Source of the DNA: Coleofasciculus sp. FACHB-T130
GTDB taxonomy: Bacteria; Cyanobacteriota; Cyanobacteriia; Cyanobacteriales; FACHB-T130
NCBI RefSeq assembly: GCF_014695375.1
Contig: NZ_JACJOG010000050.1
Coordinates: 1 to 64,000, forward strand
Direction of reading: 5' to 3'
Length of the DNA stretch: 64,000 bases
Shown here: positions 4,067 through 63,113 of the stretch, piece by piece
Position numbering within the stretch: the first letter of the stretch is position 1
Layout of the letters: every line of letters begins with the position of its first letter
Program-made: the position numbers and the translations under genes
The notes under the pieces: model-generated
What the model saw: only the letters and a program-made list of their open reading frames with translations
Told to the model about the DNA's origin: nothing
Databases searched by the model: none

Positions 4067-6670
4067 TCAGAAAGGAAGGATTGCTTCAATGTCCTTTTGC
4101 ACCTGCTCAAGTTCCTGACGCTTCTTACAGATAAAAGCTTTTTCAGCTTGACGTTGTTCCAGTGTTTCTTTGTGAACTTTTTCCTGCTGCTCTAGCAAGT
4201 TTTCTGAGATAGAGATGGCTTGTGCAATAACTTTGCTGGCTGCTTCAGAGCGCTCGTTAAAAACTAAGCTAATTCTTTCTCCAATATTACCCAATATTTC
4301 TTCTACTGACTGGCTAAATTTCTCTAAACCTAAATCACATACTTTCTGTTTTATCTGACCATGTATTCCATCAACATCTAGCAGGCCGAAACCAAATGAG
4401 CCACCAGCCGCAGCAGCTAAACCGCCCAGAATTATTGGAACAATACCAAGTCCTGTAAATATCAGCAACGCACCAGCAACTAATCCACCTGCTCCCAACC
4501 CACCAAAGAAACCTCCAGCACCACCAATATCTGGGTTAATGGATGAAGCAATACCTAGCCCGCCCGTCCCTATTCCAGGAAGAGTTTCCGCAGCTGCAAA
4601 ATTGAGTTGATTAACCAAGCTAGTATTGAGTCGCCGATCGAAAACTTGAAAATTTTTCCTAATAGATTCTATCTCTTGCTCAATTTCCTTATCTAAAATT
4701 TCAAGATTCTGTTTCAAAATCGTATCTCTAATCTTTTTATTACCCCAGTCATCTAGTTCTTTTGAAAAGTCTCGAACAAACTGATTTGCATAATCTCTAA
4801 TTAACTCTTTTTGGCTCCAAATATGTGAATGTTCGGAAGACCAGCGTTTACTTTTGTCTGCTATACGATCGCCTATTTCTTCAGCCCACTCATTCCAAAA
4901 CTCCTCAGCTTGATCGCATGATTGTTCTATCAGTTGATCTGCTATTAATTGGATTCTGACATCGCGGCCACTGGCTTCACCCATTTGTTCAAATATTTTA
5001 TGTTTATCTTCTTCAGAAACTTTCACCTTACCATCTAAAATTTGCTCGAATTGGTTTAGTTCATTACAAGAAACCTCAATTAACTGCTTAAGTCCTTCGC
5101 TAGATTGGTAAAGTTCTATTAATCCTCGCTCAGTAGCGAGGAACTTCTCAATAGACTGTGTAAATTGCTGGAAGGTTTTCAAGTAACTATCCTGATTCCC
5201 AGTCAAAATTGCATCCAGTGCCGCTTGAGCCGAAATGAAATGAAGGCGGTTTTCACCTGCAATGATAGGATTTTGACCCTGAACAAACCTTTCAATCCGT
5301 TGACGAACCTGGTGCCGACCATTTTCACTACGCAACAGATCCATAAAATTCACAACTACAAACAAATTGTTGGCAGCCTCATCTGTCTTCCCACCGTTCA
5401 GTTGAGCCTTCAAGTCTTGGATCAAGTCGCGTTCTCCTTGAGTTAGAGGACGTGAGGCATTGATTAGGAAAATCGCGGCATCAGTATCTTTGAGTAGTTG
5501 TTGAGTAATCGCAGTTCGGTCAGGATGTTCATTCAATCCTGGAGAATCCACTATTTCAACACCACTTCGGCATAGCTCTAGATCGGGATGTTCAAAAATA
5601 ATCTCTTCAATATCAGAACGAGCTAATTCATCACTGACACAATCCAATGCGGCTTCTTCTGAAATTGCTGCCTTTATTTTGTACTGTTCAAATGGAATTT
5701 CTTCCTCTCGTTTATCTTTATAACGGCAAATTACCCGTTTTTGCTCTCCATATCTGAGAACTGTTACCGTGCCGCTACAGGGAATCTCTCGCACTGGTTG
5801 AATTTCTTCACCTAGTAGAGCATTCAGTAATGTTGATTTTCCTTGGCTAAACTCGCCTACAACTGCCACTCGGAAGCGCTGAGAACTCAACTTTCGAGAC
5901 GCTTGCTCTACTTGTTCTGCTAGATTGTTAGGCAGTACACCCTGATTCGTGCCGTCTTGGATAATCTCGGCAAGTTGCTTAGAAGCGGTTTTTAACTGTT
6001 GCCGATACCCTTGGAACCGCTGTAGCTCCTCATAGGACAAGTTTAGGCGCTGTTGTTGCTTGGCTTGCTGTTTAGGTTTAGTAGGTAGAACCGCCAACAG
6101 ATCGCTAGCAGCCATGATAAATACGGCATCAAGCGCATGAAAGCGAGCAGGATCGAGTAAAGACTGCACCTCCTCCAAAGCTGTTGGTTCCACAGTGCCT
6201 TGATGACTGAATCCCGCTTCTAAAACTGCCAAGTGTTGTGGATTAATCTCTAATCGATCGCCAATTATTTCTAAATACCGCTTTTCACGAGTATCCATTA
6301 CTCCATCAGCGGCTGATATTTCATAGCCAAAACTAATCAACAAAAGTTTTTGTGATTTTGATAACGGAGCTGCCAACCTAGACAGCTGACTTGGTTTTGT
6401 ATTATCCAAATTCTCCTTTACTCCCTTGATCATCAAATGCGCTAATCGACGCACACCGCCCTCTGTGGGAATAAATCGATTAAGGGTTGTCAGTAGCCGT
6501 TGCTTTTCATCATCCGTAACTGTGCCATCAGCATAAATCACACCCAGTAGCAGCGTTACCAAATTTGCTAAAAATATCACGGGAGGCGTCAAATCCTCTT
6601 GGCTGAGCTTTTGCCCAGTAATCCGCGACAACAAATCAACAGCTTCAGAGCTAACCAGTGAAATATCCAT
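4067..6670 (-). CDS. TerB-domain dynamin-like GTPase
   Basis: Large GTPase of the bacterial dynamin superfamily, 867 residues. The N-terminal part (about 20-150) looks TerB-like: helical, with two acidic turns, YADGTVTDDEK and AADGVMDTREK. The GTPase domain starts near 265, with P-loop GEFSQGKSTLLNALLG, G3 box DSPGLNEHPDRT and a likely G4 NFMD. A long helical stalk follows. A glycine/alanine-rich hydrophobic stretch near 690-770 (FFGGLGAGGLVAGALL, then ILGGLAAAAGG) looks like a membrane-inserting paddle, and a coiled coil closes the protein. Bacterial dynamins remodel or fuse membranes, and some act in envelope stress or phage defence. It is divergent to the membrane/coiled-coil gene at 6808, 137 bp away, which suggests joint control. 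Confidence 0.85.
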   Translation of the reverse strand: MDISLVSSEAVDLLSRITGQKLSQEDLTPPVIFLANLVTLLLGVIYADGTVTDDEKQRLLTTLNRFIPTEGGVRRLAHLMIKGVKENLDNTKPSQLSRLAAPLSKSQKLLLISFGYEISAADGVMDTREKRYLEIIGDRLEINPQHLAVLEAGFSHQGTVEPTALEEVQSLLDPARFHALDAVFIMAASDLLAVLPTKPKQQAKQQQRLNLSYEELQRFQGYRQQLKTASKQLAEIIQDGTNQGVLPNNLAEQVEQASRKLSSQRFRVAVVGEFSQGKSTLLNALLGEEIQPVREIPCSGTVTVLRYGEQKRVICRYKDKREEEIPFEQYKIKAAISEEAALDCVSDELARSDIEEIIFEHPDLELCRSGVEIVDSPGLNEHPDRTAITQQLLKDTDAAIFLINASRPLTQGERDLIQDLKAQLNGGKTDEAANNLFVVVNFMDLLRSENGRHQVRQRIERFVQGQNPIIAGENRLHFISAQAALDAILTGNQDSYLKTFQQFTQSIEKFLATERGLIELYQSSEGLKQLIEVSCNELNQFEQILDGKVKVSEEDKHKIFEQMGEASGRDVRIQLIADQLIEQSCDQAEEFWNEWAEEIGDRIADKSKRWSSEHSHIWSQKELIRDYANQFVRDFSKELDDWGNKKIRDTILKQNLEILDKEIEQEIESIRKNFQVFDRRLNTSLVNQLNFAAAETLPGIGTGGLGIASSINPDIGGAGGFFGGLGAGGLVAGALLIFTGLGIVPIILGGLAAAAGGSFGFGLLDVDGIHGQIKQKVCDLGLEKFSQSVEEILGNIGERISLVFNERSEAASKVIAQAISISENLLEQQEKVHKETLEQRQAEKAFICKKRQELEQVQKDIEAILPF

Positions 6671-54612: not shown

Positions 54613-56055
54613 ATGATTAAAAAGACGGAGCTTATCGAATTTCCACAATCCTACTCCAGAAAAGCCGGTATTATTGTCACCCTAATTGGATGTGTTGTTT
54701 TACTGGGCTGGATATTAGATATTACAGCCCTTAAAAGCATTTTGCCAGGGCTGGTAAGCATGAAAGCCAACACAAGCATAGCCTTTATTCTGAGTGGATT
54801 GTCTTTGTGTTTGTGGCACGATGCGGAACACAGAAGACAAAAGGCAAAAGATAACCGGAGAAAGTCTTCGTTTGACCTTTCTCAAGTGTTAGCGATCATC
54901 GTCATTTTAATCGGTTTATTGACACTAATTGAGTATGGGTTTGGATGGAATCTAGGAATTGACGAACTGCTGTTTAAAGACCCAGCAGGCGCTGTTGGCA
55001 CCTCTGCACCAGGGCGAATGTCTCCCAATAGTGCCCTGTGGTTGACTTCTCAATTTCCCATACCTGGAGAAGATGGCAAGCCGATGGGTATTGGTGTCAC
55101 CGTGATGGATATTACCGCTCGCAAACAAGCTGAGGAAGCCCGTCGGGAGAAAGAAGTTCAGTTAAAAGAAAAAAATCAGCAGCTAGAACATACTCTCCAA
55201 GAACTCCAACGCACTCAAGGTCAACTAATCCAAAGCGAAAAAATGTCCAGTTTAGGACAATTGGTCGCAGGGATTGCTCACGAAATTAATAATCCAGTTA
55301 ACTTTATCTTTGGGAATCTCACCCATGTCAGAGAATACACCCAAGATTTATTAAATCTATTGCGGCTCTATCATCAGCAATACCCGAACTCAACGCCAGA
55401 AATTCAGGAAGAGATAGAAGCGATTGACCTAGATTTTATGATGGAAGATTTTCCTAACCTGTTGTCATCAATGAAGGTGGGAGCAGATCGCATCCGGGAA
55501 ATTGTTCTTAGCTTGCGGAATTTTTCGCGAATTGACGAAGCTGAAATGAAGGCGGTTGATATTCACGAAGGAATTGATAGTACCCTAATGATTCTGCATA
55601 ACCGTCTGAAAGCAAAACCGGATCATCCTAACATTCAGATGATTAAGGAGTACGGTCAATTACCTAAAGTCGAGTGCTACGCAGGACAGCTCAATCAAGT
55701 GTTTATGAATTTGATCGCTAATGCCATTGATGCGTTGGATGAGTATAATAAACAGCGATCGCTTTCAGAAATTAAGGCAAATCCCAGCTGGATCAAAATT
55801 CGCACTGAGGTACTAGACTGCGATCGCGTCGTTATCAAAATTGCGGATAATGGCTCTGGAATGACAGAGGCGGTGAGACAACAGCTATTTAATCCCTTTT
55901 TTACTACCAAAGCCATTGGCAAAGGCACTGGACTGGGTTTGGCAATTAGCTACCAGATTGTTGTAGAAAAGCACAATGGTCAATTGCAATGTCTCTCAGC
56001 ACCAGGTAGGGGAGCGGAGTTTATTATTGAGATTCCACTTCGCCAGATAGTTTAG
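54613..56055 (+). CDS. Membrane sensor histidine kinase with apparent internal deletion
   Basis: A 480-residue histidine kinase. Residues 1-130 hold about three membrane helices (GIIVTLIGCVVLLGWILDI and VLAIIVILIGLLTLIEYGF). A short piece of a PAS/PAC end follows (GEDGKPMGIGVTVMDITARKQAEEA), then a coiled coil, HisKA with GIAHEINNPVNF near 220, and HATPase (IADNGSGM, GKGTGLGLAISYQIV). The junction around 135-155 (APGRMSPNSALWLTSQFPIPGED) joins a membrane-domain motif directly to the last strands of a PAS domain, so most of a PAS domain and later membrane segments seem to be missing, in frame. Confidence 0.85.
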   Translation: MIKKTELIEFPQSYSRKAGIIVTLIGCVVLLGWILDITALKSILPGLVSMKANTSIAFILSGLSLCLWHDAEHRRQKAKDNRRKSSFDLSQVLAIIVILIGLLTLIEYGFGWNLGIDELLFKDPAGAVGTSAPGRMSPNSALWLTSQFPIPGEDGKPMGIGVTVMDITARKQAEEARREKEVQLKEKNQQLEHTLQELQRTQGQLIQSEKMSSLGQLVAGIAHEINNPVNFIFGNLTHVREYTQDLLNLLRLYHQQYPNSTPEIQEEIEAIDLDFMMEDFPNLLSSMKVGADRIREIVLSLRNFSRIDEAEMKAVDIHEGIDSTLMILHNRLKAKPDHPNIQMIKEYGQLPKVECYAGQLNQVFMNLIANAIDALDEYNKQRSLSEIKANPSWIKIRTEVLDCDRVVIKIADNGSGMTEAVRQQLFNPFFTTKAIGKGTGLGLAISYQIVVEKHNGQLQCLSAPGRGAEFIIEIPLRQIV

Positions 56056-56500: not shown

Positions 56501-57826
56501 ATGGATACTCAAGCGATCGCTTCAATCGAATTTCTGCAACGTCAAGCTGCTTCTCTGTTACTTTATCAATCCGTCCTCCGTGGGGAAGTCGGCACGGCTT
56601 TCCTGAATCTGCTACAAGCCTTAAGCAGCAGCAACACCAATGGACTGGCTTGCCTGCAAGCTTACGGCACTTGGTTTCAAGCTTTAGCCGCCAGAAATCA
56701 AGGTTGGCAAGACTACCTAATTACCCAAATTCTCAGAACTGACAATCCTTTTAGCAAGCAAGTCCAGCAATCGTCTTTACTGCCTCCGGCGCTGGTAGCT
56801 GCTGCCCAGCACGATTTACAAGCCTTGCAGAGCCTCTACAATTGCAGTAGCGACCAGTTGAGCCGGTGGGTGCAAGCCACAGCCAAGTTACTCGCGGCAC
56901 CAGTCGCCTGGAACCAGCAGCAGGATAGGGTAGGTGCAATTCACGAATTGCCCATTTGGGAGAAATTCCAAATGTCAGAAAATTGGGTAGATTTGCTGGA
57001 ATCTTTAGCCGCTCATTATCAGCAATACGGAACGGGGCTGTTTGCTTCTTATCGGGCGTTACGCTGGCAATCTGGGCAGTTGGTAGGCATTTCCTATGCC
57101 GATCCCGTGCAGCTTCCAGAATTAGTCGGCTACGAGTCTCAGAAAGACTCTTTGCTGAAGAATACAAAATTTTTACTCGCCGGTCATCCAGCTTTACACG
57201 TTTTGCTCTACGGCAGTCGTGGTAGCGGCAAATCTTCTTTGGTGAAGGGGTTGTTAAATGAGCCTGATACGGGAAACCTCCGCCTCGTCGAAGTTGCCAA
57301 ATCTGAACTGAAAGATTTACCAACCATTGTCGAGCAGTTGCGGGGTGTGCCTCAGAAGTTCATCATCTTTGTTGACGATCTCTCCTTTGAGGAGGATGAC
57401 GACGCTTTCAAAGCTCTTAAAGTAGTGCTGGAGGGCAATTTAACCGCACGTCCTCAAAATGTGGTGGTTTATGCGACTTCCAATCGGCGGCATCTGATTC
57501 GAGAATTTTTTAGCGATCGCCCTCGTCCCAAGGACAATGAAGAAATTCATGCCTGGGATACGGTTCAGGAAAAGCTGTCGTTTAGCGATCGCTTTGGTCT
57601 GACTTTAACCTTTGAACCCGCCGATCAGAACACCTACCTAAGCATTGTTCGCCATCTCGCAACCCAAGCCGACATTTCCCTCACTCAGGAAGATTTAGAG
57701 TATCGTGCCTTACAGTGGGCAACTCGCCACAACGGGCGTTCTGGACGTACAGCACGGCAATTCATTGACTTTCTCAGGGCAGATTTAGCTGTTACTGGTT
57801 CAGAATCTCGTAGATTAAACACATAA
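56501..57826 (+). CDS. DUF815 family AAA-type ATPase
   Basis: A 441-residue P-loop ATPase of unknown role. Walker A is YGSRGSGKSSLVKG (about 234-247), Walker B is KFIIFVDDLSFE (about 286-297), and sensor/arginine regions (TSNRRHLIREF, then LSFSDRFGLTLTF) match DUF815. The C-terminal HNGRSGRTARQFIDFL is the family tail. In the N-terminal half the sequence RVGAIHELPIW (56928-56960) is a translated dispersed repeat, apparently inserted in frame. It is followed, 63 bp on, by the coiled-coil gene at 57890 on the same strand. Confidence 0.85.
   Translation: MDTQAIASIEFLQRQAASLLLYQSVLRGEVGTAFLNLLQALSSSNTNGLACLQAYGTWFQALAARNQGWQDYLITQILRTDNPFSKQVQQSSLLPPALVAAAQHDLQALQSLYNCSSDQLSRWVQATAKLLAAPVAWNQQQDRVGAIHELPIWEKFQMSENWVDLLESLAAHYQQYGTGLFASYRALRWQSGQLVGISYADPVQLPELVGYESQKDSLLKNTKFLLAGHPALHVLLYGSRGSGKSSLVKGLLNEPDTGNLRLVEVAKSELKDLPTIVEQLRGVPQKFIIFVDDLSFEEDDDAFKALKVVLEGNLTARPQNVVVYATSNRRHLIREFFSDRPRPKDNEEIHAWDTVQEKLSFSDRFGLTLTFEPADQNTYLSIVRHLATQADISLTQEDLEYRALQWATRHNGRSGRTARQFIDFLRADLAVTGSESRRLNT
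56928..56958. repeat. Dispersed GTAGGTGCAATTCACGAATTG repeat inside DUF815 gene
   Basis: GTAGGTGCAATTCACGAATT is a near-palindromic element found widely in cyanobacterial genomes. Here it sits within a coding sequence and is translated as VGAIHELP. It resembles a scar of a small mobile repeat. Confidence 0.7.
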
Positions 57827-57889: not shown

Positions 57890-58987
57890 ATGCGATCGGT
57901 TAAGGTAAGCAATCGGATTTTACTGGGTTTAATTGCCTTCGGTGTGAGCTTTTTCCTGAGCTTTATTGCCAACCGAGATTTCCCAAAAGCCTTGGTTACA
58001 GGTTTAATTACTGTACCTGCTACTTATGCAGGAGCCATTGTTGTACAAATTAAACAAAGAAAGCAGAAGTTTTTTCTACAAAATGAAATTCAAGCGATTT
58101 CCGACGAAAGACAAAACTTAGAAGACGATCTCTATTATTTGGAGTCAAGCCTAAACCAATTACACGGACAAATCGCAGAAAGCTATAACCGAAGAGAGGT
58201 CATTAATCGGGAAGTGTCCACTTTAGGAGCTTATAGATACCAACTAGAAGAACAAGGGTTTATTCTCCAAACTCAACTTGAGGTTCTGGAAAGGCAAAAA
58301 GCAGAACTCAATGAATCCTTGTTGGCTGCAACATCGGAAAAGCAGAAGACAGAAACTAGCTTAAATTCCCTGAGAACGGAATTCAAGAAACTGCAAGATC
58401 AAGTGACAGATCATCAAAATCAGAAAACAATCCTTGAGCAGGAAATCACTAATCTTAAAAAACAAAAACGCCCTTTACAATCAGAAGTAGATAATCTGCA
58501 AGCTCAGCTTCAGACGCTGGAAACACAGAGAGGGGTGCTGAATCAATCTCTGGCGTCTTTGAAAGTAGAATTAGGTCAGTTGCAAGGGCAAGTATCCTCT
58601 TTAAAGTTGGAATACGAGCAGTTAAAGAGTGGGAACTTAAACTTCCAAAAACCTCAAAAAGGACAATCCCAAACAATCCCTTTTTGGGAAATACAAAGAA
58701 AACAATCAGTAGAAAATTTATCAGCGGAATGGACTGCTCTAAAAACAAAACTTACGAATGATGATATTCAGATAATCAAAGCCATAGTAGAGCAAAACAA
58801 TCCAGGTGCAACTCTCAAGAAAATCGCTGAGACAAATATAACTATGCCTCAACTATTGATAGATGCAATAAACGAACGTGCTATAGATACCATTGGCGAT
58901 TTTATCATTGAACCAGGTTCGGCATCGATTCCGCCTGCGATCGCAGAAGAACACTTGACAAAAGTGAAGAAGATGCTCGAAACTTAG
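57890..58987 (+). CDS. Membrane coiled-coil protein with TerB_C-like tail
   Basis: A 365-residue protein. Residues 8-28 and 34-52 are two hydrophobic helices (ILLGLIAFGVSFFLSFIA and LVTGLITVPATYAGAIVV). A long coiled coil (about 58-245) follows, with many Gln/Glu/Leu heptads. The C-terminal ~100 residues resemble the TerB_C domain: LTNDDIQIIKAIVEQ, then TMPQLLIDAINERAIDTIGDFIIEPG. TerB_C proteins are known to sit in gene neighbourhoods with ATPases and helicases, which is what follows here. The call is by eye and would need a profile search. No catalytic residues seen. Confidence 0.7.
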   Translation: MRSVKVSNRILLGLIAFGVSFFLSFIANRDFPKALVTGLITVPATYAGAIVVQIKQRKQKFFLQNEIQAISDERQNLEDDLYYLESSLNQLHGQIAESYNRREVINREVSTLGAYRYQLEEQGFILQTQLEVLERQKAELNESLLAATSEKQKTETSLNSLRTEFKKLQDQVTDHQNQKTILEQEITNLKKQKRPLQSEVDNLQAQLQTLETQRGVLNQSLASLKVELGQLQGQVSSLKLEYEQLKSGNLNFQKPQKGQSQTIPFWEIQRKQSVENLSAEWTALKTKLTNDDIQIIKAIVEQNNPGATLKKIAETNITMPQLLIDAINERAIDTIGDFIIEPGSASIPPAIAEEHLTKVKKMLET

Positions 58988-59050
58988 TTTTATAAAACTA
59001 ACAATTTATCAAAATTTATTATAAAAACCTAAGTAAACCGAATCAAAAAC

Positions 59051-59074
59051 CTCACCTCATTCCTGGCAGGTGAG
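59051..59074 (+). other. Small hairpin upstream of BrxD-like gene
   Basis: CTCACCT-cattcctggc-AGGTGAG forms a 7-bp stem in the 149-bp spacer before the ATPase gene. No T-run, so it is not a clear terminator. It might modulate read-through or translation. Confidence 0.4.
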
Positions 59075-59136
59075 ACAGAATGAGAAACGTCAAAGCTTTG
59101 TCCGCCTATATAGCAACAAATAAATTATTTTAAATC

Positions 59137-60459
59137 ATGACGAAAATCAAAATTACCAAAAGAATATCGAATGCTTTAATCAGTTCTCTTGGTGCAGGTG
59201 TTGTCCCTAGAATCGGTCTGGAACATATTGCTGTCGGACGCGAAAAAGAAGTCAAAGCTATTTTACAGGATTTCGATAATATTGGCGAAGGCGGTGCCGG
59301 ATTTCGCTTCGTTGTAGGACGCTATGGTTCCGGTAAAAGCTTTATGCTACAACTGATTCGCAACCACGCGATGGAAAGAGGTTTCGTAGTAGCTGATGCT
59401 GATTTATCTCCCGAACGGCGACTCGCAGGATCTGACGGAAAAGGGGTTGCAACTTATCGGGAATTAATGCAGAATCTTTCCACCAAAATACGCCCAGAAG
59501 GTGGCGCTTTCACACCCATTTTGGAAGGATGGATTAATAATATTCAAAACCAAGTTGCACAAGAAAGCGGGATGCGACCCAACGACACTGGGTTTGACGA
59601 TAAAGTAGAAGAGAAAATTCGGGAAGTCGTTAAGGATATAGAAGGTTTAGTTCACGGGTTTGACTTTGCGAATGTCATCATCGCCTATTGGCGCGGCTAT
59701 CGTTCGGAGGATGATGATAAAAAGGAAGCAGCGCTACGTTGGCTTCGAGGGGAATTTGGGACGAAAACTGAGGCAAAAACCGCGCTGGGAGTACGTGTCA
59801 TCATTGACGATGAAACTTGGTATGACTACATTAAGCTAGTTGCAAAGTTTGTTTCAGACATTGGCTACAAAGGACTTTTGATTTTGGTGGATGAAGCTGT
59901 TCATTTGTACAAAATTACTCATACCGCTTCCCGTCAAAAAAACTACGATAAGCTATTGGCAATGTTCAACGATACGATGCAGGGAAGAGCAGAAAATCTC
60001 GGCATTTTTATCGGAGGAACGCCAGAATTTGTGGAGGACAAACGCCGGGGGTTATACAGTGATGAAGCATTGCGATCGCGCTTAAGCAGCCGTGTCAAAG
60101 GAGGTCATCAGGATACCTCAGCACCCGTCATCCAGCTAGAAATATTAACCCCGCAGAATATATCCGAGCTTTTGCACCGATTGGTTGATATTCATGCTAC
60201 CCATTACAACTATAATAAAACTCTGAAACCAAGTGATTTGCAAGAGTTTATGCAAGAAGTTGTCAATCGCTTAGGTGCAGACAAATTCTTGACCCCACGT
60301 GAAGTTGTCCGCGACTTTATCAGTATTTTGAATATCCTCCAGCAAAACCCCAGCATCTCTTTTAGAGAACTCATTCATGGTTCTAGTTTTAAACCGACTT
60401 CTCCCGGCAAAAACCCAGAAATAGATGGGAATACTGAATTTGCAGAATTTACCTTATGA
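59137..60459 (+). CDS. BREX-type BrxD-like ATPase (DUF2791)
   Basis: A 440-residue P-loop ATPase. Walker A is GRYGSGKSF (61-69), Walker B is LLILVDEAVHLY (about 247-258). Other DUF2791 features include HIAVGREKEV near the N-terminus, GIFIGGTPEFVEDKRRG and LTPREVVRDF. BrxD is found with an Lhr-like helicase in type 2 BREX (phage defence) and in TerB-linked DNA-processing operons. The next gene starts by a 4-bp ATGA overlap, so they are translationally coupled. No PglX or PglZ gene is in the window. Confidence 0.88.
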   Translation: MTKIKITKRISNALISSLGAGVVPRIGLEHIAVGREKEVKAILQDFDNIGEGGAGFRFVVGRYGSGKSFMLQLIRNHAMERGFVVADADLSPERRLAGSDGKGVATYRELMQNLSTKIRPEGGAFTPILEGWINNIQNQVAQESGMRPNDTGFDDKVEEKIREVVKDIEGLVHGFDFANVIIAYWRGYRSEDDDKKEAALRWLRGEFGTKTEAKTALGVRVIIDDETWYDYIKLVAKFVSDIGYKGLLILVDEAVHLYKITHTASRQKNYDKLLAMFNDTMQGRAENLGIFIGGTPEFVEDKRRGLYSDEALRSRLSSRVKGGHQDTSAPVIQLEILTPQNISELLHRLVDIHATHYNYNKTLKPSDLQEFMQEVVNRLGADKFLTPREVVRDFISILNILQQNPSISFRELIHGSSFKPTSPGKNPEIDGNTEFAEFTL

Positions 60460-62639
60460 GCGAACAGGCTTTTGATAAATTAGCGCCTTTCATTCAAGAA
60501 TACATCTACACCCAAGATTGGACTGAATTAAGAGACGTTCAAGTTGAAGCGTGCAAGGTTATTTTTGACACAGATGCTCACTTGTTGATTGCCGCCGGAA
60601 CCGCATCCGGGAAAACAGAAGCGGCTTTTCTTCCGGTTCTAACTTTATTACATCAAAACCCATCTACAACGATTGGGGCACTTTATATTAGCCCGATAAA
60701 AGCGTTAATCAACGACCAATTTGAGCGACTAAATGACCTTTTAAAAGAAGCGGATATTCCAGTCTGGCACTGGCACGGCGATGTTTCTCAGGCTCGGAAG
60801 AAACAACTCCTAAAAGATCCCAAAGGGATTCTGCAAATAACGCCAGAATCTTTAGAAAGTCTCTTAATTAATAAAAATACTCAACTGTTTCGCTTGTTCG
60901 GAGACTTACGTTTTGTCATTATTGATGAAATCCATGCCTTTATGGGTTCCGAACGGGGTTGCCAAATTCTCTGCCAGTTGGCACGCCTTTCAAAATTTGT
61001 AAAAAATCCCACCCGTCGGATTGGTTTATCGGCTACCCTTGGCGATTACTCACTCGCTGAAGACTGGCTGCGACTGGGAACCGAAACGCCAGTCATTACT
61101 CCGGATATCGAGGGAGGAAAACGGAAAATCAATCTGGCTTTAGAGCATTTTTTTGTTTCTCCCGTTGAACCAGATGAGACTGATGATTTAGTTTTTAGTC
61201 CTTACTACAGGCATATCTTTAATATCACGAAATCTCGAAAAAGCCTGATTTTTGCTAACAATCGCTCAGATACAGAATCAGTGATTGCCAGTCTGCGTGA
61301 AATAGCTGAAACTGAAGGATTACCAGATATTTATCACGTCCATCATGGCAGTATTTCTACCTCGTTAAGGGAAGCGGCTGAGGATGCGATGCGCGATACA
61401 AAAGTTCCATCGGTTACTGCTGCAACTATCACGCTTGAATTAGGAATCGATCTCGGTCAATTAGAGCGAGTCATTCAATTAGATGCGCCTCTTTCCGTAT
61501 CCAGTTTCTTGCAGAGATTGGGACGTTCGGGAAGGCGAGGAAGTGCGGCAGATATGCGGTTTGTTTGCGCGGAAGAGGAACTATCAACAGAGGAATCGCT
61601 TCCTAATCAAATTCCTTGGCAACTGTTGCAATCTATCGCGATTATTCAACTTTATTTAGAAGAACGTTGGATTGAACCAATCAAGCCGGTTAAATATCCT
61701 TTTAGCCTTTTATATCACCAAACAATGAGTATTTTGGCGGCGATGGAGGAACTCTCCCCCGCAGCTTTAGCTCAGCAAGTTTTAGCTTTACCACCCTTTG
61801 CAGCTATATCTAAAGATGATTTTAGGCAATTGCTACGAAACTTGATAGGAATTGACCACATTCAGCAGACTGAGGGAGACAAATTAATTATCGGATTAGC
61901 TGGTGAGAAAATTGTAAAAAATTTCCATTTTTATGCCGTTTTTTCCGACACGATTGAGTATGCTGTCAGGAACGAATCGATGGAAATTGGCAGTATCCTG
62001 ATGCCTCCACGTGTTGGCAATTGCTTTGCCTTAGCAGGGAGAACGTGGGAAGTTTTGGATAGCGATGTTAAAACAAAAACTGTTTTTGTCAAGCAAGCGC
62101 AAGGTCAAGCTAAAATTTCTTGGCATGGTGGCAGTAGCAATATTCATACAAAAGTTCTTGAACGGATGCGAAAGGTTCTTTTTGAGGATATGCAGTATAG
62201 CTATTTGCAAAGTAATGCTAAAAAGCGCCTGAATGAAGCTCGTCAATTAGCTCAATTTTGGGAATTTGAAAGAAATAACATCGTTTCATTAGGAAGCAAA
62301 ACTTGCTGTATATTTCCTTGGATGGGTACTGTCGCTTACCGCACCTTGGAAAGGTTTCTAAATTTCTTTGGTAGAGAGTCTCTGGATATCAAGAAGATTG
62401 GGGGTCAAGCTCCATATTTTATGACCGTTAAACTTGGAAAGGATGGGGTTGAGGAGCTTGGCTCGGAAATCCTGGCGTTTGGCAATAAAAGGATTACGGC
62501 GCTAGATCTAGTTGCTGTTGAAGAACCTTTAAAAATGCAAAAGTATGATGAGTTTATTCCTAGCAAGCTGCTTCGTAAAGCTTTTGCTTTCGATTGTCTA
62601 GATGTTGGAGAGCTGAAGAAAATTATTAGTGGTTGGTAG
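60456..62639 (+). CDS. Lhr-like SF2 DNA helicase (BrxHI-like)
   Basis: A 727-residue SF2 helicase. Walker A is AAGTASGKTEAA (about 46-57), motif Ia ISPIKALINDQ, motif II DEIH near 157, motif III GLSATLGD, and motif VI QRLGRSGRRG near 352, the last typical of Lhr-type 3'-5' translocases. The C-terminal half is an accessory region with no further motif. The preceding BrxD-like gene overlaps by 4 bp. The pair BrxD plus Lhr-like helicase fits a DNA-processing or phage-defence module. Start ATG 60456 is fixed by the overlap. Confidence 0.9.
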   Translation: MSEQAFDKLAPFIQEYIYTQDWTELRDVQVEACKVIFDTDAHLLIAAGTASGKTEAAFLPVLTLLHQNPSTTIGALYISPIKALINDQFERLNDLLKEADIPVWHWHGDVSQARKKQLLKDPKGILQITPESLESLLINKNTQLFRLFGDLRFVIIDEIHAFMGSERGCQILCQLARLSKFVKNPTRRIGLSATLGDYSLAEDWLRLGTETPVITPDIEGGKRKINLALEHFFVSPVEPDETDDLVFSPYYRHIFNITKSRKSLIFANNRSDTESVIASLREIAETEGLPDIYHVHHGSISTSLREAAEDAMRDTKVPSVTAATITLELGIDLGQLERVIQLDAPLSVSSFLQRLGRSGRRGSAADMRFVCAEEELSTEESLPNQIPWQLLQSIAIIQLYLEERWIEPIKPVKYPFSLLYHQTMSILAAMEELSPAALAQQVLALPPFAAISKDDFRQLLRNLIGIDHIQQTEGDKLIIGLAGEKIVKNFHFYAVFSDTIEYAVRNESMEIGSILMPPRVGNCFALAGRTWEVLDSDVKTKTVFVKQAQGQAKISWHGGSSNIHTKVLERMRKVLFEDMQYSYLQSNAKKRLNEARQLAQFWEFERNNIVSLGSKTCCIFPWMGTVAYRTLERFLNFFGRESLDIKKIGGQAPYFMTVKLGKDGVEELGSEILAFGNKRITALDLVAVEEPLKMQKYDEFIPSKLLRKAFAFDCLDVGELKKIISGW

Positions 62640-62699: not shown

Positions 62700-63113
62700 A
62701 TGCCATTTACTTATACCCGAACGATTCGTTTTCAGGATACCGACGCCGCCGGTGTTGTCTACTTTGCCAATGTCTTGGCAATGTGTCACGAAGCTTATGA
62801 AGAATCGCTAGCGGCTTCGGATATCAATCTCAAGTTATTTTTCAGCAACCCGAATGTTGCAATTCCTATTGTTCATGCCAGCGCTGATTTTTTCAGTCCG
62901 ATGTTTTGCGGTGACAAGGTACTTATTCAGTTAATTCCTCAACATCTTTTATCTGAAAAATTTGAAGTTAATTACCAATTTATTGCGGAGAATCGGGTAG
63001 TCGCACAAGCAATTACTCGGCACGTTTGCATCGATGCAGCTACTAGAAGTCGAAAAGAAATTCCGGCGGAGATGATTCGATGGCTCCAGCAATGGAAGGA
63101 AGAAGAGGAATAA
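62700..63113 (+). CDS. 1,4-dihydroxy-2-naphthoyl-CoA thioesterase
   Basis: Hotdog-fold thioesterase of 137 residues that releases CoA from DHNA-CoA in phylloquinone synthesis. The conserved [14 protein letters not shown] (about 13-26) has the catalytic Asp. The next segment [10 protein letters not shown] is family-typical. It is convergent with menE, another gene of the same pathway, which supports the function. Confidence 0.88.

Follow-up and report, generated by a model that had tools for sequence, protein, structure and literature searches.

A cyanobacterial Shango locus in Coleofasciculus sp. FACHB-T130 whose TerB_C protein fits the septal protein SepT

Three genes of the cyanobacterium Coleofasciculus sp. 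FACHB-T130, located at positions 57,890 to 62,639 of a 64,000-nucleotide stretch (positions 1 to 64,000 of contig NZ_JACJOG010000050.1, hereafter the window), are compared here with the anti-phage system Shango and with the septal protein SepT. Papers are cited by PMC number for those sections of them that are used here. Shango combines an ATPase and a helicase with a TerB-like protein; it protects Pseudomonas from several phages and E. coli modestly, and the sections used offer no account of its mechanism (PMC10250203). Its helicase, SngC, has been placed in a clade of antiphage-system helicases (PMC12278908). SepT (All2460) of Anabaena PCC 7120 has membrane helices at residues 12-50, a coiled coil and a TerB-C domain, and its gene stands in a conserved synteny block with all2459, the downstream open reading frame, and all2461, both of which encode P-loop NTPases (PMC10653889). 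According to the same work, SepT-GFP is found at the cell periphery and the septa, for which the membrane part is required, sepT mutants are altered in cell size, wall growth and septal nanopores, and All2459, among others, was co-precipitated with SepT-GFP. SepT has 426 amino acids and its Nostoc azollae homologue 420 (PMC12421839).

Shango homologues in the window and the identity of SngA

An earlier reading of this DNA from its letters (the sequence-only reading) had placed three same-strand genes here, the last two overlapping by ATGA; genes, coordinates and overlap (at 60456-60459) were confirmed. Profile comparisons leave hardly any doubt that the three are homologues of the Shango genes sngA, sngB and sngC:

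57890..58987, + strand: sngA variant (fits SepT/All2460) with membrane hairpin, coiled coil and TerB_C, 365 amino acids (PADLOC, Pfam, AlphaFold2)
57917..58045, + strand: predicted membrane hairpin of SngA, residues 10-52 (hydropathy)
58046..58627, + strand: predicted coiled-coil rod of SngA, residues 53-246 (AlphaFold2 helix; SMC-like and coiled-coil profile matches)
58640..58966, + strand: TerB_C domain of SngA, residues 251-359 (PF15615)
59137..60459, + strand: sngB, BrxC/BrxD-family ATPase, 440 amino acids (PADLOC SngB; PF10923)
60456..62639, + strand: sngC, SF2 Lhr-like helicase, 727 amino acids (PADLOC SngC; DEAD, Helicase_C, WH_Lhr)

SngB and SngC matched their PADLOC profiles at full length, the former at 8e-186 (profile positions 1-424 of 439) and the latter at 2.4e-252 (positions 1-716 of 720). 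The PADLOC profiles of BrxD (5.7e-60 for SngB) and BrxHI (1e-131 for SngC) were far behind, and the NCBIfam BrxD score of SngB was 203 against a cut-off of 350. At the family level the sequence-only reading was right to see a BrxD-like ATPase and a Lhr-like helicase: SngB matched BrxC_BrxD (PF10923) at 7e-172, and SngC carries the DEAD, Helicase_C and WH_Lhr domains, the last a Lhr-type winged helix. The Walker A motif was present in 66/66 SngB sequences; in SngC the DE-x-H, SAT and QRxGRxGR motifs were present in 55/55 and the motif I pattern in 51/55. A sequence search of the PDB returned no match to SngB. PglZ, whose absence from the window had been noted, gave no match anywhere in the genome, which measures 6.2 Mb, is 100% complete, and in which no search aimed at PglX was made. 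The claim of a functional trio distinct from canonical BREX therefore holds, the Shango scores being far above those of BrxD and BrxHI. The trio is of a known kind, with a variant SngA, and not the new, unnamed minimal system that had been proposed.

The first protein is where the cyanobacterial locus departs from canonical Shango. Its match to the PADLOC SngA profile (2.8e-16) was confined to profile positions 295-527 of 528, and the single TerB_C domain of the genome was located at residues 251-359 by a PF15615 search (E 7.9e-11; 42.8 bits against a cut-off of 26.3), where residues 260-365 had been guessed. The two membrane helices and the coiled coil that had been predicted were also recovered. 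Hydropathy gave hydrophobic stretches at residues 10-28 and 34-52, and the AlphaFold2 model shows a short helix followed by a single one spanning 31 to 246; a linker of low confidence then leads to a small helical C-terminal domain at 279-364, modelled with only moderate confidence (mean predicted local distance difference test score 76.5; predicted template modelling score 0.29). Both N-terminal helices were present in 46/46 SngA relatives, and in all 46 the content of lysine and arginine past the second helix exceeded that of the loop. A PDB sequence search with SngA returned only a coiled-coil match, to NDC80.

TerB_C was matched in 42/42 aligned cyanobacterial relatives of SngA (alignment A1, 42 of 47 sequences obtained; a second alignment, A2, holds the window protein and 49 of 55 dereplicated sequences, from 80). 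Pfam found neither TerB_N nor TerB in the window protein, and both were absent from the families listed for the 42 relatives, among the 25 of 31 families shown. Seven long, canonical SngA proteins encoded beside SngB, five of them plasmid-borne (two from Paenibacillus and one each from Sulfitobacter, Halocatena and Azospirillum) and two from distant members of the phylum, carried TerB_N and TerB_C in 7/7 and TerB in 5/7 cases. Because TerB_N and TerB occur in canonical SngA and are not listed in the cyanobacterial relatives, the domain content indicates that cyanobacterial SngA has kept the TerB_C end, with a membrane hairpin and a coiled coil now in place of the N-terminal half. Locus L089 of genome G341 encodes, at 4593-5462, a 289-residue protein whose start looks hydrophobic and which gave a coiled-coil-like match as well as a TerB_C match at 2.1e-23. 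It adjoins a SngB that groups with the canonical SngB, and may be a second short SngA with a membrane anchor, independent of the first. A cyanobacterial-type SngA is also found on a contig (L184) that carries the label of a Tatlockia metagenome-assembled genome and is probably wrongly binned.

The anatomy of this variant is that of SepT. TerB_C was found in 198/208 Nostocaceae genomes, and because it is single-copy in 197 of the 208, the TerB-C protein of Anabaena is almost surely this SngA. In genome G428, which looks like Nostoc azollae, the SngA counted from its second Met is exactly 420 residues long, the length given for the SepT homologue of that species (PMC12421839). Anatomy, synteny and copy number together make it very probable that SngA of the window type is SepT, and All2459 would, by its position, be SngB. 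The sequence-only reading, which is partly supported overall, had missed that its TerB_C protein fits a protein with a published septal phenotype. The main text of the SepT paper mentions none of Shango, phage, helicase, BREX or defense (PMC10653889). Searches by title, abstract and passage, in which most subscription papers were not covered, found no literature joining Shango with cyanobacteria or with SepT, and none under the term DUF2791.

Distribution, inheritance and order of loss

Within the family identified from organism names as the Nostocaceae, SngB was found in 190/217 species and 53/56 genera. The 190 include genome G428, whose SngB is broken (399 bits) and which stands in the co-occurrence table as having no intact SngB. 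In a phylum-wide draw of 386 genomes, with thresholds of at least 500 bits for SngB and for SngC, 45 had SngB, 43 had SngC, all of them within the 45, and 341 had neither (Fisher p 4e-55, relatedness ignored). Two SngB genomes had no SngC: in G378 a decayed, stop-containing remnant of sngC is left, and G110 is a draft of 73% completeness whose SngC-like match is weaker. Dropped from these counts were SngB matches of 220-235 bits (G107, G080, G084, G101 and a second copy of G091) and SngC matches of 380-490 bits (G115, G084, G080, G101, G110 and second copies in G350, G419 and G091). Second, weaker SngC-like helicases of 456-465 bits stand beside a full-scoring SngC in two genomes (G350:C41:9315-11405 and G419:C200:28061-30148). 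Membrane-type SngA was present in 38/39 Cyanobacteriia genomes with SngB, unlinked cases included, the exception being G341. Shango also occurs on 678 plasmid records, as found by a SngB search.

The genes are often dispersed. Counted by eye, sngC was more than 10 kb off or on another contig in 21/38 Cyanobacteriia genomes with SngB and SngC: in nine the two genes share a contig, at distances of up to 3.7 Mb, and in twelve they are on different contigs at an unknown distance. In a second set of loci sngC immediately followed sngB in 14/68. In the window the three genes do stand together, but for the group the compact module of the sequence-only reading does not hold; the co-occurrence of the three genes, which that reading had put forward for a survey, did stand (43/45 for SngB and SngC, 38/39 for SngA), and the locus proved near-core and not island-like. 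Unrelated genes separate sngB from sngC in loci L040, L042, L043, L067, L080, L083, L084, L090 and L092, that of L040 being a 400-residue gene which by eye resembles a DNA cytosine methylase. Judged in the same way, the intervening genes differ in kind (kinase-like on the other strand, methylase-like, small genes), so no fourth member of Shango was found among them; insertions seem to be what separates the pair.

Pairwise distances of SngB and SngC correlated at 0.948 over the 37 genomes with all three proteins (G093 and G428 left out), at 0.958 over 16 genomes in which the genes are unlinked, and at 0.71 as a partial correlation in which DUF815 serves as proxy for the species tree; much of this correlation is plain vertical descent. 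Cyanobacterial SngB formed one clade over the Cyanobacteriia (support 98/90, 52 rows), next to the SngB of Paenibacillus, in a tree from which G428 was left out and in which some canonical rows were long-branched. The dN/dS of SngB and SngC was 0.06-0.12 in three species pairs, that is, purifying selection as strong as that on the housekeeping neighbours. The Shango locus here is an old inherited chromosomal locus and not an island.

The flanks of the locus are marked by two genes:

56501..57826, + strand: DUF815 AAA ATPase gene, upstream landmark, not a component (PF05673, 2.2e-95)
62700..63113, + strand: 4HBT thioesterase gene, menI-like, first of the men genes flanking the locus, taken only as a downstream landmark (PF13279, 2.5e-20)

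The DUF815 gene lies directly upstream of sngA (of sngB in G128) in 37/53 Cyanobacteriia loci. In the second set, which was found through its SngA and shares species with the first, the loci with room to see had DUF815 directly upstream of sngA in 76/78 cases and sngB downstream in 75/78. DUF815 was considered as a fourth component since it is found beside sngA even where sngB and sngC have been lost, and was rejected: it is a general gene, above cut-off in 66/80 relatives of which most lack Shango, and no DUF815 match was found in G026 and G052, which do have Shango. A menI-like 4HBT thioesterase gene also follows sngB at less than 4 kb in loci L033, L034, L035 and L049. About 8 kb downstream of sngC, past the window end and within the menaquinone/phylloquinone gene region, a KAP NTPase gene of defence-related look (L001:10523-12709, - strand) matched PADLOC PifA at 4.7e-116. 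Among ten flanking proteins it accounts for all PADLOC matches (PifA-, PDC-S20- and QatA-like), the other nine having none at 1e-5. Upstream, at 54613-56055 of the window, lies a sensor kinase gene of 480 residues whose apparent relatives in the upstream regions of L035 and L041 have 855 and 938; judged by eye, it may have lost an internal part.

Concerning the order of loss, 12 of the 50 SngA genomes were without intact SngB, and none of these 12 had intact SngC. With the window SngC as query in 13 genomes, decayed pieces were found in G428 and G378 and nothing in the other 11. The SngA-only genomes span at least four Nostocaceae genera (g57, g58, g72, g84), and more than one joint loss of SngB and SngC has therefore occurred. 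The TerB_C end of SngA was unmatched in 4/12 SngA-only genomes and in 0/38 genomes with SngB (p 0.002, relatedness ignored); the four proteins, matched only up to before TerB_C, are those of loci L234 (G201), L235 (G278), L236 (G021) and L237 (G185), without SngB or SngC. The DUF815 gene was still beside sngA in 10/11 SngA-only loci fetched, the exception being G185, and also in G428. The last genome, apparently that of the fern endosymbiont Nostoc azollae, has a broken sngB, a decayed sngC and an intact sngA, and is a case of the loss process under way.

A membrane- or septum-tethered machine and its alternatives

Taken together, the evidence somewhat favors a cyanobacterial Shango with SepT as its SngA, tethered to membrane or septum, in which SngB and SngC would be selected for protection against phage or mobile DNA and SepT would shape the septum besides. 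Its parts are of different strength. That the three proteins form a membrane- or septum-tethered machine is fairly probable; that an anti-phage or anti-mobile-DNA role has been retained is plausible, at slightly less than even chances. According to this proposal, SngA/SepT would be dimeric and reside in the cytoplasmic membrane and the septa with both ends, the rod and TerB_C in the cytoplasm, an orientation suggested by the 46/46 relatives in which lysine and arginine are more frequent past the second helix than within the loop. TerB_C would dock the SngB ATPase, and SngB may load or drive SngC, the helicase, on DNA entering or located at the membrane or septum. The co-precipitation of All2459 with SepT (PMC10653889) and the loss of TerB_C in 4/12 SngA-only genomes against 0/38 with SngB speak for the proposal. 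Selection would have kept SngB and SngC as a safeguard against phage or mobile DNA coming in, the shaping of septa by SepT being an additional role. A defence role is favored because canonical Shango inhibits phages and SngC falls in the antiphage helicase clade, and because sngB and sngC, not sngA, decay in G428, apparently a sheltered and still filament-forming fern endosymbiont.

Several observations weigh against this proposal. Anti-phage activity is known for none of the cyanobacterial members. A near-core SngB, placed among housekeeping genes and under strong purifying selection, is unusual for a defence system. SngC is associated with SngA and SngB by co-occurrence alone, and SngA is equated with SepT by anatomy, synteny and copy number, not by direct alignment. 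TerB_C is retained in 8/12 SngA-only genomes, and it may therefore have a partner other than SngB. Finally, the SepT rod is periplasmic in a model from 2025 (PMC12096826). We favor a cytoplasmic rod from the charge pattern and the SngB partner, as does the original SepT paper, in conflict with that model.

The strongest alternative is that the machine has been co-opted for housekeeping and no longer takes part in defence: SngA/SepT, SngB and SngC would handle host DNA or wall at the division septum, for example in clearing DNA or placing nanopores. Near-core presence in the Nostocaceae (190/217), retention of the genes in spite of their dispersal, purifying selection similar to that on the housekeeping neighbours, and the sepT mutant phenotypes together with the co-precipitation of All2459 (PMC10653889) all agree with it. 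However, filamentous genera with a retained SngA have lost SngB and SngC jointly on several occasions, and septa are therefore made without these two; the place of SngC in the antiphage helicase clade (PMC12278908) also argues against it. We regard it as credible if unlikely.

That SngA/SepT is functionally unrelated to SngB and SngC, the trio being a relic of shared ancestry, is improbable. SngA alone in 12/50 SngA genomes and the often unlinked sngC would fit such a relic, whereas the joint presence of SngB and SngC in 43/45 genomes, the presence of SngA in 38/39 Cyanobacteriia genomes with SngB, the loss of TerB_C solely where SngB was lost and the co-precipitation of All2459 with SepT (PMC10653889) would not.

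An ordinary mobile Shango, that is, a recently acquired phage-defence cassette, is very improbable. The PADLOC matches of all three parts, the 678 plasmid records and the PifA-like gene some 8 kb away recall such a cassette, but the single Cyanobacteriia clade of SngB (98/90), the neighbours that are constant across families and the SngB and SngC distances that track DUF815 do not, and tree and synteny speak strongly against a recent mobile acquisition.

A minimal BREX derivative, as might be read from SngB in the BrxC/BrxD Pfam family and a SngC that resembles BrxHI, can be dismissed on the absence of PglZ from the genome and on scores weaker than those of the Shango profiles, which are far higher (BrxD of NCBIfam being at 203 against 350).

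If the proposed membrane-tethered Shango is carried one step further, filamentous cyanobacteria would possess an immune machine of the intercellular wall: SepT would hold the Shango ATPase and helicase at membrane or septal junctions, where they might police the entry of phage or plasmid DNA or its passage from cell to cell, and the same part would shape the junction. We regard this as a speculative extension and rather doubtful. If true, it would mean an anti-phage system built into, or recruited for, bacterial multicellularity. A Shango locus whose SngA is very probably SepT already links phage defence and multicellularity in a testable way. Judged by the sections used of their papers, two fields have worked on the same proteins apparently unaware of each other, one on Shango with its mechanism and its TerB part unexplained (PMC10250203) and one on SepT with its TerB-C and its P-loop neighbour unexplained (PMC10653889). 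The topology of SepT is also at stake, with a rod that is periplasmic in one account (PMC12096826) and cytoplasmic in the other. The locus further offers a near-core anti-phage family with genetically separable parts, in which the order of loss (SngB and SngC jointly, TerB_C in some cases afterwards) can show dependence. Within the literature searched, the variant, its near-core inheritance and the tie to cell-cell junctions are new.

Comparison with known systems

The window shares with Shango, on which Millman is said to have reported as well in 2022, full-length SngB and SngC, the gene order and the TerB_C end of SngA. It differs in a SngA without TerB_N and TerB and with a membrane hairpin and coiled coil, and in that the cyanobacterial form, known here from sequences alone, is near-core and vertical, with an sngC that is often unlinked. 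BREX has the ATPase and helicase families in common with it (BrxC/BrxD and BrxHI), whereas here PglZ was not found in the genome, the profile matches are weaker and a TerB_C protein is present instead. The published SepT work mentions neither Shango nor a helicase partner (PMC10653889). The window SngA is shorter than SepT (365 against 426 amino acids) and comes from another family of the order, and the two have in common the two N-terminal membrane helices, the coiled coil, TerB-C and two flanking P-loop NTPase genes, which in the window are those of DUF815 and SngB.

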